In this document: positions 10,831 through 30,404 of the stretch, piece after piece | Position numbering within the stretch: the first letter of the stretch is position 1 | Layout: each line of letters begins with the position of its first letter | NCBI GenBank assembly: GCA_900314465.1 | Contig: OMVK01000036.1 | Location: forward strand, 1-42,170 | Reading direction: 5' to 3' | DNA: 42,170 bases | From: an uncultured bacterium | GTDB taxonomy: Bacteria > Bacillota_I > Bacilli_A > RF39 > UBA660 | Position numbers and translations under genes: made by a program | The notes under the pieces: model-generated | What the model was told of the DNA's origin: nothing | Databases searched by the model: none | What the model saw: the letters and a program-made list of their open reading frames with translations, nothing else

Positions 10831-12411
10831 CTATTCTATATTAACATTATTACCAAACATATCTTCTGCTAAACTTACTGAATCTTGACTTGAATTTATA
10901 TATTCAGAATCATCTTGATATTCATATTTTTTATTTTTATCAAATTTGGATACGATATTTTTAAACTCGGTAGCAGATACAAATATCATACCATATTTAG
11001 TATTATATAAATTATTAAATTTAATTTCCAATGTATGTAATTTTGAATTATTTACTATTTTAGTGCTATTAGATTCCGTTGTAAATAAAACGTTTGTTGA
11101 TGATACAACCATGGGTTCTGAGCTTTTTACTACATAAGCTAAATTATCAGAATTATCACTAATAATTTTTTGTTTAAATTCATTCCATTTATCAACAAAT
11201 TCTTTTTTTAAAGTTTTTGAAGCATCTACAAACGAATTATTTACTCTAATATTAATAAATTCATCACAAATTTTGTAATATTGTTGACTATCTTCCTTAA
11301 TATAGTTATTTATATCTATCTTATTACTAGTAGAAATTATTTCCCGGGAAATAATTTGGTTAATATCTCTACTTGATAAACGATATTTATCATCATTTAT
11401 ATAAGATATTAATTCTAATTCTAATAATAAATATCCATTAGAATTAGAATTTAATTTATTTATTAAGTTATTTAATGAACTTATTAAATCTTTTAATTGA
11501 TTAAAAGCACTGGTTGATATGTTCTTTTTTTTCATATCAATAGCCTTTTGTAAATAATTATCAAGCATCTTATTTATTAACATTTTTATATCAATGCCAG
11601 AAGATTTAATTTTATTTATTATATTTATTAATTCTTCGATATTATTTTTTATTATTGAAAGATATATATTATTTATATCTTCATCAGATACTGTACCATA
11701 ATTTTTTTCAACAATATCTAGCGTTACATCATCTGATACTTTTGATATTTGATCTAAAATACTTAATGCATCACGCATACAACCATCAGATAAATATGCA
11801 ATTTCAGACAATGCCTTATCATCATATTTTATTTGTTCTTTTTCACATATATCTTCAAGATGTTTAATTATTAAGTCTTTATCGATTCTTGAAAAATCAA
11901 ATCGTTGGCATCTAGATAAAACAGTAATTGGTACTTTTTGTATATCTGTGGTCGCAAGAATAAATATTACGTTTTCAGGTGGTTCTTCAAGAGTTTTTAA
12001 AAATGCATTCCAAGCTGAATTAGATAGCATATGTACCTCATCAATTATATAAATTTTATATTTACCCATTGATGGCGCTATTTTGACATTATCGATTATT
12101 TCACGGATATCATCTACACTATTATTACTTGCTGCATCTAATTCAACTATGTCAGGATTAGTCGAAAAATTAAGACAATTATTACATTTTTCACAAGAAA
12201 TACCATCTTTTGAGTTTTCACACTCTAATGCTTTAGCAAAGATTTTAGCAGTACTTGTTTTTCCTGTACCTCTTGGTCCCGTAAATATATAAGCATGAGC
12301 TATTTTATTTTCAATTATTGAATTTTTTAATATTCTTACTATATTATCTTGTCCAATTAATTCATTAAAGTTTGTTGGACGGTATTTTCTGTATAGAACT
12401 TTATAATTCAT
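10831..12411 (-). CDS. dnaX: DNA polymerase III subunit gamma/tau
   Basis: 526 residues. The AAA+ clamp-loader ATPase has Walker A GPRGTGKT (45-52), zinc cysteines C64, C73, C76, C79, Walker B IIDEVH (122-127) and the SRC arginine-finger motif (166-168). The C-terminal third is a low-complexity, asparagine/serine-rich tau-like region. It is the motor of the clamp loader and bridges polymerase and helicase. It heads the dnaX-ebfC-recR-holB-ricT-trmN6-pth-mfd-tatD gene string. A Noc-type 24-bp palindrome lies inside it (11334-11357). An A8G run at 11524-11531 is discussed among the rejected items. Confidence 0.97.
   Translation of the reverse strand: MNYKVLYRKYRPTNFNELIGQDNIVRILKNSIIENKIAHAYIFTGPRGTGKTSTAKIFAKALECENSKDGISCEKCNNCLNFSTNPDIVELDAASNNSVDDIREIIDNVKIAPSMGKYKIYIIDEVHMLSNSAWNAFLKTLEEPPENVIFILATTDIQKVPITVLSRCQRFDFSRIDKDLIIKHLEDICEKEQIKYDDKALSEIAYLSDGCMRDALSILDQISKVSDDVTLDIVEKNYGTVSDEDINNIYLSIIKNNIEELINIINKIKSSGIDIKMLINKMLDNYLQKAIDMKKKNISTSAFNQLKDLISSLNNLINKLNSNSNGYLLLELELISYINDDKYRLSSRDINQIISREIISTSNKIDINNYIKEDSQQYYKICDEFINIRVNNSFVDASKTLKKEFVDKWNEFKQKIISDNSDNLAYVVKSSEPMVVSSTNVLFTTESNSTKIVNNSKLHTLEIKFNNLYNTKYGMIFVSATEFKNIVSKFDKNKKYEYQDDSEYINSSQDSVSLAEDMFGNNVNIE
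11334..11357. promoter_or_regulatory. Noc-binding palindrome (NBS 1) inside dnaX
   Basis: A perfect 24-bp palindrome whose central 14 bp are ATTTCCCGGGAAAT (11339-11352), identical to the B. subtilis Noc consensus. It is flanked by AAATT/AATTT arms. It is coding sequence of dnaX, as many Noc sites in Bacillus are intragenic. Confidence 0.85.
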
Positions 12412-12884: not shown

Positions 12885-12894
12885 ATTTCCTCAC

Positions 12895-12974
12895 AAAAAA
12901 AGAGCACACAACTGGTGATTATTATGGCTGCTGCATTCCTGCTCTGACCAGGTTCTAATACAGTTATTGCTCTT
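12895..12974 (-). ncRNA. ffs: Small SRP RNA (4.5S type)
   Basis: An 80-nt hairpin RNA on the minus strand. The conserved apical domain reads ACCTGGTCAGAGCAGGAATG followed by CAGCAGCCATAA, matching the SRP helix 8 internal loops and tetraloop region. The ends pair (AAGAGCA with TGCTCTT) and run into seven U residues (12895-12901), which serve as its terminator. It binds Ffh for co-translational membrane targeting. It has its own strong promoter. Confidence 0.92.
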
Positions 12975-12979
12975 CAAGC

Positions 12980-13009
12980 ATTATAACATAGTATATGTTT
13001 AAATTTCAA
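12980..13009 (-). promoter_or_regulatory. Promoter of SRP RNA
   Basis: Minus strand: -35 TTGAAA (13004-13009), 18-nt spacer, extended -10 TGTTATAAT with TATAAT at 12980-12985. The predicted start is 5-6 nt downstream at the SRP RNA 5' end. Confidence 0.85.
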
Positions 13010-13021
13010 TCTCAAACAACA

Positions 13022-13037
13022 TGTTTCACATGAAACA
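13022..13037. promoter_or_regulatory. parS site 1
   Basis: TGTTTCACATGAAACA differs from the perfect palindrome TGTTTCACGTGAAACA at one central base. The 16-bp parS consensus in Bacillus is TGTTNCACGTGAAACA. Confidence 0.85.
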
Positions 13038-13067
13038 TATTATATTTTTTATATTTATTTTGTTTAG

Positions 13068-13091
13068 AAATTATTTCCCAGGAAATAATTT
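13068..13091. promoter_or_regulatory. Noc-binding palindrome (NBS 2)
   Basis: A 24-bp palindrome with the same AAATT/AATTT arms as NBS 1. The core ATTTCCCAGGAAAT has one central mismatch. Confidence 0.8.
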
Positions 13092-13141
13092 GATTAATAA
13101 TTTATAGTAAAAAGTACGTAATTGTGTCATTATTGTTTATA

Positions 13142-13157
13142 TGTTTCACGTGAAACG
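13142..13157. promoter_or_regulatory. parS site 2
   Basis: TGTTTCACGTGAAACG has 15 of 16 bases of the perfect parS palindrome. It is preceded by TGTTTATA, as are parS 3 and 4 in similar form. Confidence 0.87.
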
Positions 13158-13209
13158 TTAATATTATATTTTCAAAAATCTAAAACGATAAAACGCATAT
13201 CACTCATTT

Positions 13210-13238
13210 TTTATAGTATAATATTTTTTCTTTGTCAA
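13210..13238 (-). promoter_or_regulatory. Putative sigma-A promoter in the parS spacer
   Basis: Minus strand: -35 TTGACA (13233-13238), 17-nt spacer, -10 TATAAA (13210-13215). It would send a transcript through parS 1-2 toward SRP RNA and tadA, a second start for that unit. The -35 falls inside the direct repeat at 13231-13254; the second copy of that repeat has no matching -10. Confidence 0.5.
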
Positions 13239-13254
13239 AGTTTCACATTGACAT
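13231..13254. repeat. Direct repeat copy 1 in the parS array
   Basis: A 24-nt sequence (begins TTTGTCAAAGTTTCACATTG, ends ACAT) repeated exactly at 13391-13414. It contains a parS half site (GTTTCAC). Each copy lies 56 bp before a full parS site. Confidence 0.9.
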
Positions 13255-13286
13255 GCTTTTTTATATTTTCGTATTGTTTATAACAA

Positions 13287-13302
13287 TGTTTCACGTGAAA
13301 CA
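13287..13302. promoter_or_regulatory. parS site 3
   Basis: TGTTTCACGTGAAACA is a perfect 16-bp parS palindrome. Confidence 0.93.
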
Positions 13303-13390
13303 TATATGAAAATAATGTATTATTTTGTTACTTAATATTGTTATCTAGTATTTCTTGTTAATTTATACTTCATTGAACCACTTAGTTACT

Positions 13391-13414
13391 TTTGTCAAAG
13401 TTTCACATTGACAT
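13391..13414. repeat. Direct repeat copy 2 in the parS array
   Basis: Identical to 13231-13254 over 24 nt and exactly 160 bp away. parS 3 and 4 are also 160 bp apart, so a [repeat + parS] unit was duplicated. Confidence 0.9.
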
Positions 13415-13446
13415 TGTTATGCTATTTCATGGTTTATAATTTTGAA

Positions 13447-13462
13447 TGTTTCACGTGAAACT
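13447..13462. promoter_or_regulatory. parS site 4
   Basis: TGTTTCACGTGAAACT has 15 of 16 bases of the parS palindrome. Confidence 0.87.
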
Positions 13463-13490
13463 ATTAATATATATTATATTTATAAATTTA

Positions 13491-13514
13491 ATATTATTTC
13501 CTGGGAAATAATAT
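13491..13514. promoter_or_regulatory. Noc-binding palindrome (NBS 3)
   Basis: Core TATTTCCTGGGAAATA (13495-13510) has one central mismatch to the Noc consensus, with palindromic AT flanks. It lies just beyond the gyrA terminator. Confidence 0.8.
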
Positions 13515-13550
13515 TAAAAATAAAAGAAGATTATTGGTCTTCTTTTATTT
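13515..13550 (-). terminator. Rho-independent terminator of recF-gyrB-gyrA
   Basis: Minus strand: a 13-bp stem (13538-13550 with 13518-13530, 7-nt loop) overlaps the gyrA stop codon and is followed by a U-rich stretch. It isolates the gyrase operon from the parS spacer. Confidence 0.85.
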
Positions 13551-19229: not shown

Positions 19230-19694
19230 TTAATAATTTAAACGATTTTTGTCATTTTTATTAATTTTAAAAGCAAGTTTATATGCTCTAAGTATTTGGT
19301 TATCTAAAATATTTTTAGATACAGATAAACAAATAACTCTATTATTAGTAAATCTAATATAAGATTTATCTAATATTTCATCATAATAATTAGTACTTAT
19401 ATTAAATAAATTTAACCAGCAGCAACTTGATAATCTAGGACTTGATGTTGGAAAAAAAATAATAGGATTAATTTCATCAACGATAATTGGTGCTTTATAA
19501 GAATATCCAGTTAATTTCTTAGTTCCAAGTAATCTTCCACCATAAGTAGAACCATGATATATGCAATTAGAATTAATAATAGCATTAGGTTTTCTTGCAA
19601 TAATATAACTATTATCGGCATCATATACAAGTGAGCTTTTCTTTCCATATGGCAATATAGCAAGTGTCTTAGATGTTATAACATAATCTTTCAT
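19230..19694 (-). CDS. comK: ComK-family transcription factor (C-terminally short)
   Basis: 154 residues. The ComK signatures line up in order: KTLAILPYG near the N-terminus, CIYHGSTYGGRLLGTKKLTG (compare CRFFGSSYAGRKAGT in B. subtilis), KAPIIVDEINPIIFFPTSSP, CCWLNLFNI, and NILDNQILRAYKLAF near the end. ComK binds paired AT-boxes in the minor groove and switches on DNA-uptake genes. B. subtilis ComK is 192 residues; this one stops before the segment holding FMLYP, the MecA/ClpCP recognition motif. An AAGGAGG SD lies 6 nt before ATG. It is separated from dnaN by a terminator, and upstream are two tandem AAAAAAGGAG-like motifs and one AAAA-N5-TTTT box (19761-19773), which is weak evidence in such AT-rich DNA. 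Confidence 0.82.
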   Translation of the reverse strand: MKDYVITSKTLAILPYGKKSSLVYDADNSYIIARKPNAIINSNCIYHGSTYGGRLLGTKKLTGYSYKAPIIVDEINPIIFFPTSSPRLSSCCWLNLFNISTNYYDEILDKSYIRFTNNRVICLSVSKNILDNQILRAYKLAFKINKNDKNRLNY

Positions 19695-21052: not shown

Positions 21053-22417
21053 TTAACTTATTATTTTATCTTTAATTTCTTTAATTTCGTTCCTTAATTT
21101 TTCATCAGTTTTTAACTGTTCTTCTACTTTATCACAGGCATGTATTACTGTAGCATGATCTCTATTGAATTCAAGTCCTATTTTTTCGATAGTTTCATCT
21201 GTATTCATTTTACATAAATACATAGCAACTTGTCTTGCATTGTTGATAACTGCATTTCTTTTCTTACTCTTAAGCGATTCTTCGGTTAAGTCGTAGTATT
21301 CTGCGACCGCTTTTCTTATTTTTGCTATATCATTTGATAAGTAAATTGAACTATTTAAATAATCTTTTAGGGCTTCTTTTGCAAAGTCTAAATCTATTTT
21401 ATCATTATTATACATAGCTGTGTATGCATATAACCTATTTATTGCACCTTCTAGGTGTCTAACATCTGATTCTGAGTTATTGGCGATATACTCAAGTACT
21501 TCAGGTTCAATTAGCTTACTAGTTTCATGACCGGCAATTTTATTTTTTAATATTTTCAGTTTTAAATCGTAATCCGGAGGCATAATATTTACTGGAAGTC
21601 CCCAAGTAAAACGAGTTCTTAAACGTTCCTCTAATAATTTTAAATCATCAGGAGATCTATCAGATGATATTATTATTTGTTTATTTAAACCGTGCAAAGT
21701 GTTGAAAGTGTTGAAAAACTCATCTTGACTCTTATTTGCATTACCAAGCATTTGAATATCATCAATTAATAAGACATCGATATTACGATATTTATCTTTA
21801 AAGTTTTTAACTAAATTGAAGTTATCTTCTCCAGGCTTTTTACGATTTATCTCGGTAAAATCGTTAATAAATTGTTCAGATGTTATATATAATACTGATA
21901 AATTAGTGTTTTGAACAATATAATTACCAATCGCATTCATTAAGTGAGTTTTTCCTAACCCACTCCTACCCCATAAAAATAAGGGATTATACAATTTTCC
22001 TGGTGATTCTGCAACTGCTAATGAAACTGTTTGTGCAAGTCTATTTGAATCCCCTACTACAAAATTATCAAATGTATAATTTTGATTTAAATTGTTATTA
22101 ATATTTTTGTTTTCAACAATAATATCTTGATTACTATCTTCTTCTTTAATTACTTCGATTTTTTTATCATCATTGCTTTCAGTAACTAATACAAAAGTGT
22201 AATCTTTTCCCGTAACTTCCTTGATTCCTTCGTCAATTAAATCACTATATTTAGTTTCAATAAAGTTCTTTTTAAACTCACTAGTTATATAAATTTTAAA
22301 TTCATTATTATCAATACTTAATAATTTAGTGTCCTTAAACCAAGTATTAAATGAAATATTGGTAAGTTTTGAACTAAAATAATTAAGAATTTTTTGCCAA
22401 ATTTCCTCCGTTTTCAT
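21053..22417 (-). CDS. dnaA: Chromosomal replication initiator DnaA
   Basis: 454 residues. Domain I is at 1-75 (EEIWQKILNYFSSKL, NTWFKD) and a short asparagine-rich linker at 85-113. The AAA+ domain has YTFDNFVVGDSNRLA, Walker A GRSGLGKT (150-157) and Walker B VLLIDDIQML. The helix-turn-helix domain IV has the signature NRDHATVIHACDKV. The recognition helix is canonical, yet most boxes around the gene are not. The SD is AGGGTGG, close to ATG. Confidence 0.98.
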   Translation of the reverse strand: MKTEEIWQKILNYFSSKLTNISFNTWFKDTKLLSIDNNEFKIYITSEFKKNFIETKYSDLIDEGIKEVTGKDYTFVLVTESNDDKKIEVIKEEDSNQDIIVENKNINNNLNQNYTFDNFVVGDSNRLAQTVSLAVAESPGKLYNPLFLWGRSGLGKTHLMNAIGNYIVQNTNLSVLYITSEQFINDFTEINRKKPGEDNFNLVKNFKDKYRNIDVLLIDDIQMLGNANKSQDEFFNTFNTLHGLNKQIIISSDRSPDDLKLLEERLRTRFTWGLPVNIMPPDYDLKLKILKNKIAGHETSKLIEPEVLEYIANNSESDVRHLEGAINRLYAYTAMYNNDKIDLDFAKEALKDYLNSSIYLSNDIAKIRKAVAEYYDLTEESLKSKKRNAVINNARQVAMYLCKMNTDETIEKIGLEFNRDHATVIHACDKVEEQLKTDEKLRNEIKEIKDKIIS

Positions 22418-22755
22418 TTAACCACCCTGTCTAAGCTCATTTCAATTTAAATTTTAAATTTTTTTGTTGATAAAGTAAATAGATAATAATTGTTAACAAA
22501 GTTTTCAACGAGTTATTAATAAAGTTATTAACAATTACTTGCCTATAATATCGCATATTAAATAGGTTTTCAACGCTTTCAACAAATTTTTAAAAATAGT
22601 TTTTGTTGAAAGTTGAAAAGTTATTAACAATGAACGTTGAAAATGTTGAAAACTTTGTTAATTATTAACAATTACGAACAATGAACTAATTTTGGTTGAC
22701 TTAAAAAAATTATTATAATATAATAACTTTGCTTTGAGATGTGGAGGTGTTGCTC
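22418..22755. other. oriC: Replication origin spacer (oriC) between dnaA and rpmH
   Basis: A 338-bp non-coding region at the point where gene orientation flips from all-minus to all-plus. It is packed with nine-base motifs two mismatches from the DnaA box: TTATTAACA at 22525, 22621 and 22662; TTGTTAACA at 22490; TTTTCAACG at 22502 and 22567; CTTTCAACA at 22576; and the reverse form TGTTGAAAA/G, CGTTGAAAA at 22604, 22635 and 22644. The 22702-22728 stretch is pure A/T except for one C and could be the unwinding element; it also carries the rpmH promoter. No exact TTATCCACA is present. Confidence 0.8.
22696..22724 (+). promoter_or_regulatory. Promoter of rpmH-rnpA-yidC-jag
   Basis: -35 TTGACT (22696-22701), 17-nt spacer, -10 TATAAT (22719-22724), 32 nt before the rpmH start. 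Confidence 0.85.
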
Positions 22756-22878
22756 ATGAAAAGAACTTATCAACCAAATAAAAGAAAAGCAGCAAAGAAA
22801 CATGGTTTCTTTGCTCGTAAGAATTCAAAAGTTTTAAATACACGTAGAGCAAAAGGCCGTAAAGTACTTTGCAAATAA
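22756..22878 (+). CDS. rpmH: 50S ribosomal protein L34
   Basis: 40 residues: starts [20 protein letters not shown] and ends [11 protein letters not shown]. This is the L34 sequence with highly basic composition. It is about four residues shorter than the usual 44 because the NGRKV-type segment in the middle is compressed. The SD GGAGGTG lies 7 nt before ATG. First gene of the right replichore, next to rnpA as in nearly all bacteria. Confidence 0.96.
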
Positions 22879-22881
22879 GAT

Positions 22882-22903
22882 AACCACCACATGTGGTTTT
22901 TTT
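22882..22903 (+). terminator. Intrinsic terminator/attenuator between rpmH and rnpA
   Basis: Stem AACCAC/GTGGTT (22882-22887 with 22893-22898) and a seven-U run (22897-22903) right after the rpmH stop. It would make L34 mRNA more abundant than rnpA mRNA. Confidence 0.8.
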
Positions 22904-22923
22904 ATTTTGAGTAGGTGACATTT

Positions 22924-24894: not shown

Positions 24895-24918
24895 AAATTA
24901 TTTCCCGGGAAATAATTT
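24895..24918. promoter_or_regulatory. Noc-binding palindrome (NBS 4) at the mnmE-noc operon promoter
   Basis: A perfect 24-bp palindrome, identical to NBS 1 in dnaX, with core ATTTCCCGGGAAAT (24900-24913). It ends 5 bp before the -10 element and covers the -35/spacer region of the operon that encodes Noc. Confidence 0.85.
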
Positions 24919-28929: not shown

Positions 28930-30069
28930 ATGAAGATGGAATCACAAATTAGACTTGTAAATATGGATGATATAATTCCTAATAGATTTCAACCTCGTTT
29001 ACAATTTGATACTGAAGCTTTAAATGAACTTGCAGCATCAATTAGAGTTCATGGAATTATTCAACCTTTAGTTTTACGTAGAGTAGGAAATAAATATGAA
29101 ATAATAGCTGGTGAACGTAGATATAAAGCATCGCAGCTTGTTGGTTTAACGCAAGTTCCTGCAATTATTTGTGCACTTGATGATAATGAATCGGCTGAAG
29201 TTGCTATTATTGAAAATACTCATCGTAAAGATTTAAATCCTATCGAAGAAGCAAGATCATATAAAAAATTACTTGATAGAAAATATATTACTCAAGATCA
29301 ACTTGCTCAAAGACTTGGAACATCACAATCTAATATTGCTAATAAAATAAGATTACTTTCACTTGATGAAAATGTACAACAAGCTTTACTTAAAAATCAA
29401 ATAAGTGAAAGACATGCAAGATCTTTACTTAAATTAACAGATAAGATGGCACAAGTTAATTTTTTAAATAAAACAATTAATGAAAGACTTACTGTTAAAC
29501 AACTTGATGATGAAATAGCTAAATTTTTAGGAACTTATAAAGCACCAGCTAGTACAACAGGTGCAATTAATACAAATTCAATGTATGATGTCAATGTTAA
29601 TGATATTATGAATAATAGTACTAATATTGATGCAAATGGTAATATTATTAATAGACCACAATATCAGTATCATTCTAAGATTAAAGAAGATCCAAATAAA
29701 AAAGATTCACTATTCTTTAATAATCTTGAAAATGCACCTGCAACACTTGATGATCCTACATTAAATTTTGGTTTTAATCCGTTTGAAACAAAAGATTTAA
29801 CTGACTCTAATGGAATGCTTGATCTTGAAAATGCTCAAGGAATTGACGATGAACTTGAAGATGATGATTCTGCAAAAGATTCAAGCAGTGAAAATACTAA
29901 AACAGTATATAAAGATAGAGAATATAAGTCACTTGCTGATGTTAAACAAGGTATAAAAGATATTATAAACAATGCTATAAAAAATGATGTTGATATTAAA
30001 TTAGAAGAATTTGATTTTGATAATATTTACCAATATGTAATAAGAATATCAAAGGATAATGATAAATAA
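28930..30069 (+). CDS. noc: Noc-type ParB-family nucleoid occlusion protein
   Basis: 379 residues. N-terminal CTPase core with PNRFQPR (17-23), GIIQPLVLR, GERRYKA (62-68) and ENTHRKDLNPIEEA (95-108), then a helix-turn-helix domain TQDQLAQRLGTSQSNIANKI. Residues separating Noc from ParB are Q133, K139 and R161 (in ERHAR), all Noc-like; S144 replaces the usual Noc lysine. The C-terminal EEFDFDNIYQYVIRI matches the Noc dimer domain. Two oddities: an in-frame stop 18 bp upstream rules out the N-terminal amphipathic membrane helix of Bacillus Noc, and an insert of about 125 residues (205-330, Asn/Asp-rich) makes it about 100 residues longer. GGGAATTCCC, a 10-bp palindrome, lies between SD and ATG. 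soj-spo0J do not follow. Confidence 0.88.
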   Translation: MKMESQIRLVNMDDIIPNRFQPRLQFDTEALNELAASIRVHGIIQPLVLRRVGNKYEIIAGERRYKASQLVGLTQVPAIICALDDNESAEVAIIENTHRKDLNPIEEARSYKKLLDRKYITQDQLAQRLGTSQSNIANKIRLLSLDENVQQALLKNQISERHARSLLKLTDKMAQVNFLNKTINERLTVKQLDDEIAKFLGTYKAPASTTGAINTNSMYDVNVNDIMNNSTNIDANGNIINRPQYQYHSKIKEDPNKKDSLFFNNLENAPATLDDPTLNFGFNPFETKDLTDSNGMLDLENAQGIDDELEDDDSAKDSSSENTKTVYKDREYKSLADVKQGIKDIINNAIKNDVDIKLEEFDFDNIYQYVIRISKDNDK

Positions 30070-30404
30070 TGGAAAAGATTTCTTTTAAATTAATTACTAA
30101 TGGTGAAACTATTATTGATAAAAAAGTAAATTATTATATTAATAATAATAAAATGTATTTTATTATAGATAAAGATAAATATTCATTTGATATAAATGAT
30201 AATATCTTAACTAAAGAAAATAACGAATCATTAATAACAATTGATATGCAAAAAAATATAATTAATTATTATTTGAAAAGTGTTACTAGAACAGCTTATT
30301 TACCATTAGAATATAATAATTTAATAAAAGAAGAAAAAAGTATCATATTTAATTATAAAGTTCCTGAAAATGATATTGAAAATACAATAATGATAAATTA
30401 TTAA
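30069..30404 (+). CDS. Small beta-rich protein, possibly DUF1934 (YwiB-like)
   Basis: 111 residues, overlapping the noc stop by one base (TAATG). Alternating hydrophobic/polar pattern suggests antiparallel beta strands throughout (ISFKLITNGETIIDKKVNYY, KMYFIIDKDKYSFDI, SLITIDMQKNIINYYLKS, SIIFNYKV). No signal peptide or membrane segment. Size, fold pattern and position just before rpoE recall the calycin-like DUF1934 proteins that neighbour argS-rpoE in Bacillus, but I see no diagnostic motif; treat that as a guess. Function unknown. It shares noc's transcript and terminator. Confidence 0.72.
   Translation: MEKISFKLITNGETIIDKKVNYYINNNKMYFIIDKDKYSFDINDNILTKENNESLITIDMQKNIINYYLKSVTRTAYLPLEYNNLIKEEKSIIFNYKVPENDIENTIMINY

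Follow-up and report, generated by a model that had tools for sequence, protein, structure and literature searches.

The stretch analysed here, 42,170 nucleotides from an uncultured bacterium (GTDB lineage RF39; UBA660) and hereafter called the window, raises the question of which protein reads the parS sites at a replication origin where noc is present and parA and parB are not. An earlier note, made from the sequence alone, had described a noc-like gene followed by a small ORF and rpoE instead of soj-spo0J (parA-parB), together with four good parS sites at 13.0-13.5 kb, and had proposed that either spo0J has moved or the Noc is a natural dual-specificity ParB/Noc serving both parS and NBS. 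The genes concerned are the following.

28930-30069, + strand: noc, a Noc-clade ParB paralogue of 379 aa (PF02195 and PF17762 matches, closest PDB relatives, tree position).
30069-30404, + strand: ORF of 111 aa whose start overlaps the noc stop, present also in L016 and L017, which are close relatives.

Profile searches detected ParB_N (PF02195) and HTH_ParB (PF17762) domains in the noc product, and its best PDB relatives in a structure-database comparison were the Geobacillus and Bacillus Nocs 7ng0 and 7nfu, confirming that the gene is noc-like. The protein scored 267.6 bits against NCBIfam TIGR04285, under the curated cut-off of 315 bits. In our tree the Nocs of the family formed one clade (support 99) that joined the Nocs of other families, separate from all ParBs (support 100), the assignment of these outgroups to Noc or ParB resting on tree topology. 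The gene order was also as described, with rpoE (TIGR04567, 50.2 bits against a cut-off of 42) next after the 111-aa ORF, and the window search for a ParA or a second ParB found none. The 111-aa ORF had no Pfam or NCBIfam match. It is probably translated together with noc and was seen only near close relatives.

A site search of the window returned the four parS sites and, in addition, four NBS that the earlier note had overlooked.

11337-11354: NBS inside dnaX, TTATTTCCCGGGAAATAA, exact match.
12886-12983, - strand: small SRP RNA flanking the composite cluster (RF00169, 59.7 bits).
12985-13530: composite parS/NBS cluster between gyrA and SRP RNA/tadA (site positions, family loci).
13022-13037: parS 1, TGTTTCACATGAAACA.
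13071-13088: NBS between parS 1 and parS 2, TTATTTCCCAGGAAATAA, exact match.
13142-13157: parS 2, TGTTTCACGTGAAACG.
13287-13302: parS 3, perfect.
13447-13462: parS 4, TGTTTCACGTGAAACT.
13494-13511: NBS at that end of the parS cluster which is nearer gyrA, TTATTTCCTGGGAAATAA, exact match.
24898-24915: NBS in the jag-mnmE gap, TTATTTCCCGGGAAATAA, exact match; the same gap has an NBS in relatives.

The parS sites, each at 0-1 mismatch, are far over chance, since with looser matches included there were 9 strand-matches against 0.98 expected from shuffles. All four NBS match the 18-bp palindrome TTATTTCCYRGGAAATAA exactly, compared with 0.32 expected. They all lie on the window's contig, and a search allowing up to 2 mismatches to the 14-bp core found no further NBS in the 1.15-Mb genome. 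A perfect 19-bp direct repeat, GTCAAAGTTTCACATTGAC, is also present between parS sites (13234-13252 and 13394-13412) and is not expected by chance; its inverted GTCAA/TTGAC arms flank a parS-like half site.

Two other features of this origin region were recorded. A ComK-family protein (PF06338, E=1e-35) is encoded at 19230-19694 on the - strand, between dnaN and recF, a position retained in those family loci read that cover it; a competence regulator within the dnaA-dnaN-recF region is unusual. The dnaA-rnpA gap (22417-22915) is nearly devoid of consensus DnaA boxes, with one single-mismatch box, TTATCAACA, and contains numerous GTTGAAA/GTTAACAA-like repeats. This origin may use divergent DnaA boxes.

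The genome does contain another ParA and ParB. The assembly (1.15 Mb, 87 contigs, 94% complete) has on contig C38 a second ParB (C38:4050-4328) directly after a ParA (C38:4663-5211), in chromosomal surroundings that include an MscS channel, tilS and ftsH. The N terminus of this ParB reads ...ALGRGLEQLF and thus carries the LGRGL ParA-contact motif, and in the tree the protein falls among the ParBs of the same family. The earlier note had named a second ParB with the residues R-T/H-A/T-G as the finding that would count against a dual-specificity protein. Such a ParB is essentially what C38 encodes: the alignment gives R-I-N-S at the specificity positions, which departs from that pattern and retains the invariant parS-type arginine. 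With a ParA ATPase, an LGRGL ParB bearing the parS-type arginine and origin-near parS, the C38 operon and the window's sites together show the features of a ParABS system. Contamination is an unlikely source of the operon, given the position of the ParB in the family clade, the neighbouring tilS-ftsH and the presence of ParB_N proteins in 116 of 117 family genomes, nearly all of which have two, a ParB of about 295 aa and a longer Noc.

Loci that keep noc-parA-parB together and loci that do not, the window among the latter, each made up about half of those read. The passage from linked to split order is a single change on the Noc tree, and in split genomes with both genes on one contig noc and parB are 24-103 kb apart. 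We conclude that soj-spo0J moved once, in the window's subclade, to a place that is still origin proximal. Of the two possibilities raised at the outset, it is thus the relocation of spo0J that holds, and because a separate parA-parB operon exists, the idea of one protein for both sites is left without support.

Of 46 family ParBs, 11 have serine in place of glycine at the position equivalent to ParB 201 (for instance L001 1003-1899, - strand), and the ParB of this genome is one of them. Position 201 of ParB is, to our knowledge, described as an absolutely conserved glycine. Engineered ParB variants with dual specificity reportedly often have S or T at 201, so that if any protein here were promiscuous, the ParB would be a likelier candidate than the Noc.

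The Noc itself was examined at the four positions that distinguish the two specificities.

29326-29328, + strand: codon of Q133, equivalent to Noc Q158 and ParB R173, contacting NBS base 1 (alignment; role from PMC7383237).
29344-29346, + strand: codon of K139, the permissive lysine, equivalent to ParB 179 (alignment).
29359-29361, + strand: codon of S144, equivalent to ParB 184, varying within the family with K in 0 of 41 (alignment).
29410-29412, + strand: codon of R161, equivalent to ParB 201, contacting NBS base 6 (alignment).

All four residues are as the earlier note had stated, Q133, K139 and R161 with S144 in place of a lysine. Its reading of S144 as the mark of a partial or intermediate set did not survive comparison with relatives. 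Q133 and R161 are invariant in the family Noc alignment, and the code Q-K-x-R occurs in 40 of 41 family Nocs, where x is S, N, T, A, Q, G, V or E and never K. The second lysine is missing too in most listed outgroup Nocs of the same class. We therefore rejected S144 as an intermediate state; it is family typical.

According to PMC7383237, NBS binding needs no more than one lysine, at either 179 or 184, and Q173 favours NBS base A1 and R201 favours C6. The deep mutational scan described there found R173 to be invariable among parS-specific variants and Q at 173 to be incompatible with parS binding. The text does not report the exact Q-K-S-R set. The promiscuous engineered intermediates that it names (RKAG, RTKG, RKKG and RKKR), which bind both sites, all keep R173, so that the analogy drawn from them holds only in part: the window Noc resembles the engineered ParB-to-Noc series in combining a single permissive lysine with Q173 and R201 equivalents, but it has Q where the named promiscuous variants have R. 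S144 probably acts like the neutral residues of those mutants, and judged by its residues the window Noc would recognise NBS and not parS.

The idea of a single protein that binds parS as well as NBS and takes the place of Spo0J drew on a window with parS but no parA or parB, and on a fourth specificity residue other than lysine. The first point is answered by the complete ParA-ParB pair elsewhere in the genome, and the second by the identical Q-K-x-R set of genomes that keep noc-parA-parB together. The window Noc also lacks the LGRGL-type ParA motif, and its Q and R, at the first and last positions, are respectively incompatible with parS binding and of the NBS type (PMC7383237). Given the separate ParB, these residues and the cognate NBS in the genome, we reject dual specificity of the Noc as extremely improbable, and no such protein need be invoked to explain a window that has both Noc and parS.

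We then considered where NBS occur in the family. Exact sites were found in 106 of 117 genomes, mostly 1-8 in each and 22 in G022, leaving 11 genomes with none; a reversed control pattern gave 0 matches across the 117. Bases outside the search pattern were also conserved among the 81 distinct NBS, with T at -1 in 98% and A at -3 to -5 in 72-84%. In 12 genomes with few, long contigs, all 31 exact NBS were on the noc contig, no more than 33 kb from noc (median, 17 kb). The distribution expected of Noc sites, over much of the chromosome and absent near the terminus, was not found in these genomes. Degenerate NBS elsewhere in relatives were considered and rejected, 1-mismatch sites away from the origin being few and at about the level of the reversed-pattern control. 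In six genera, represented by the window and L089, L090, L093, L053 and L065, an NBS lies 1.02-1.12 kb into the dnaX coding sequence. One other family of the class (G143) likewise has origin-clustered NBS. NBS span the origin-proximal two-thirds of the chromosome in B. subtilis and lie within 700 kb either side of the origin in S. aureus (PMC5540599), the figures for Bacillus-type NBS being published counts; the confinement seen here may represent the extreme of this known origin bias.

Within the origin region the sites are concentrated further. In 24 loci whose gyrA-tadA gap is complete, these gaps, 15.6 kb in all, contain 29 NBS and 92 parS (parS at up to 2 mismatches), and the surrounding 451.6 kb of origin DNA contains 30 NBS, a 28-fold difference in NBS density. 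NBS were present in this gap in 15 of the 24 loci, and in 13 of 20 genomes with coordinates listed for both sites an NBS is no more than 500 bp away from a parS. Some loci display regular arrays. At L102, 13 NBS alternate with 12 parS in units of about 80 bp, running to the contig end; L082 has five parS-NBS pairs with starts 28-29 bp apart, L103 three pairs at 60-61 bp, and L062 a composite unit of 62 bp. Interleaving is not obligatory, since 9 of the 24 gaps have no NBS and 11 of the 117 genomes no exact NBS at all. The differing unit lengths between genera suggest that parS and NBS were combined, or their combination amplified, on more than one occasion. Inside a single genome an array likely grew by tandem duplication, and its units may then reflect duplication and not independent selection. 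We found nothing relevant in the open-access literature on composite parS-NBS arrays, on a helix-less Noc or on Noc in RF39, which is weak evidence of novelty.

Sites placed by dnaA-gyrA, dnaX, mnmE and noc could mean that the Noc mainly regulates replication initiation or origin genes, being loaded over the dnaA region and restraining origin firing. There is a precedent, as S. aureus Noc restrains initiation (PMC5540599), and NBS do occur near dnaA. They concentrate, however, in the parS gap and not in the dnaA-dnaN or dnaA-rnpA gaps (1 in dnaA-rnpA), and no DnaA contact motif is known. We regard this role, as the main one, as quite improbable.

The architecture of the protein bears on nucleoid occlusion. 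AlphaFold2 gave the window Noc a confident core at about residues 5-205 and two further regions.

29545-29919, + strand: low-complexity acidic linker that joins the DNA-binding domain to the C-terminal one, residues about 206-330 (209-326 mostly at pLDDT about 40; composition and recurring short motifs).
29920-30060, + strand: C-terminal domain, residues 331-377, predicted compact (pLDDT about 90; helix 335-351, strands 356-362 and 367-373).

An N-terminal helix was predicted in all Noc homologues examined by Adams et al. and is needed for division inhibition in B. subtilis (PMC4331003). We found no N-terminal extension before the ParB domain in any of the 41 family Nocs. The window protein has only 5 residues ahead of its ParB_N match, and in the model residues 1-4 are of low confidence and 7-11 already form the first strand, leaving no membrane-targeting amphipathic helix at its N terminus. 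A missed upstream start encoding such a helix was rejected, as the open frame starts 5 codons upstream. Some outgroup Nocs of the class also have no obvious N-terminal helix, so its loss extends beyond the family; others retain short amphipathic-looking N termini.

The CTP motif GERR is present in 41 of 41 family Nocs and EN..R in 40 of 41, the automated search having chosen another stretch in L087. At 29212-29226 the window has ENTHR in this motif, as do L016 and L017, most other family Nocs having EN.QR. The linkers of the 41 proteins range from 80 to 405 aa and contain 19.5% D+E and 6.7% K+R. Three short motifs recur in them, A.DI in 17 of 41 (1.7 in shuffles), L..LL in 13 of 41 (0.9 in shuffles) and KFF in 11 of 41 (0.4 in shuffles); the counts include related sequences and show recurrence, not independent origin. 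A linker segment with two phenylalanines could still bind the membrane.

These data were set against ordinary nucleoid occlusion, in which a few origin NBS would be enough in a genome of about 1 Mb, the KFF..L-type linker motif, or else a partner, would reach the membrane, and NBS and parS would overlap only through the crowding of both site types near oriC. The recurrence of KFF and the short amphipathic-looking N termini of some outgroup Nocs fit this proposal, as does the origin bias of NBS known in B. subtilis and S. aureus (PMC5540599), but the linker is acidic, and the family's NBS extend over tens of kb only, leaving most of the nucleoid uncovered. The 28-fold density in the parS gap and the strictly alternating arrays exceed what general crowding would give. 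We consider ordinary occlusion unlikely. With no helix and no genome-wide sites, the family Noc is unlikely to cover the nucleoid, and an origin-specific job is the better reading. By descent and by its predicted DNA code the window protein is a Noc; we refrain from classing it among nucleoid-occlusion factors, because the membrane helix and the chromosome-wide sites, by which Noc function is usually defined, were looked for and not found.

The explanation that we favour, and think probable, is that the family Noc is an NBS-reading, Noc-clade CTP clamp restricted to the origin, not a chromosome-wide occlusion factor, and acts beside a relocated ParA-ParB. In other species it is established that ParB, like Noc, is a CTP-dependent clamp, which is loaded at its own site and then slides (PMC8429893). 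The family Noc would nucleate on NBS near the origin, close with CTP and slide on the same origin DNA where parS loads ParB clamps. With NBS placed within the parS array and beside it, the two clamps would come to share one origin domain. The acidic linker, and not an N-terminal membrane helix, would then recruit or tether a partner at the origin, for segregation, replication control or division. Candidate jobs may include a part in the partition complex, replication control, or a link through the linker from the origin to the membrane or the division machinery. In one more specific version, the Noc would be a dedicated component of the partition complex in a two-protein centromere, with NBS built into the parS array, the two clamps side by side and the linker recruiting a partner; we put this forward tentatively, as possible and somewhat short of an even chance.

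The favoured explanation places the family Noc between known systems. It shares with the Nocs of B. subtilis and Geobacillus (7nfu, 7ng0, 7ol9) its ancestry, a position after rsmG, the Q/K/R residues, an identical NBS core, the CTP motifs, a C-terminal domain of the dimerisation type and the absence of a ParA motif. It differs in having no N-terminal amphipathic helix and a long, acidic, motif-bearing linker, and in its few NBS, which lie no farther than about 33 kb from the origin and in many cases alternate with parS, whereas theirs, by published counts, number tens over much of the chromosome. S. aureus Noc likewise has origin-biased NBS with the identical core, as well as a known non-division role in initiation control, but its 41 sites are spread across about half the chromosome and the protein appears to be associated with the membrane (PMC5540599), compared with 1-8 exact sites in nearly all genomes of the family. 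ParB/Spo0J has the same fold and CTP motifs, and in this family its parS sites share an intergenic cluster with NBS; it forms a separate clade, reads R-x-x-G/S where Noc reads Q-K-x-R, and carries the ParA-activating N-terminal motif that Noc lacks.

Noc is thought to derive from a ParB duplication, followed by changes in DNA contacts, acquisition of a membrane helix and a new distribution of sites. The present family keeps the DNA code, without the helix and with its sites in and around the centromere. It thereby separates the ingredients of Noc and offers a natural test of which of them occlusion needs. The strict parS-NBS arrays, in turn, allow a direct test of how two related CTP clamps behave together, whether by cooperation, by mutual exclusion or simply by sharing an origin domain.
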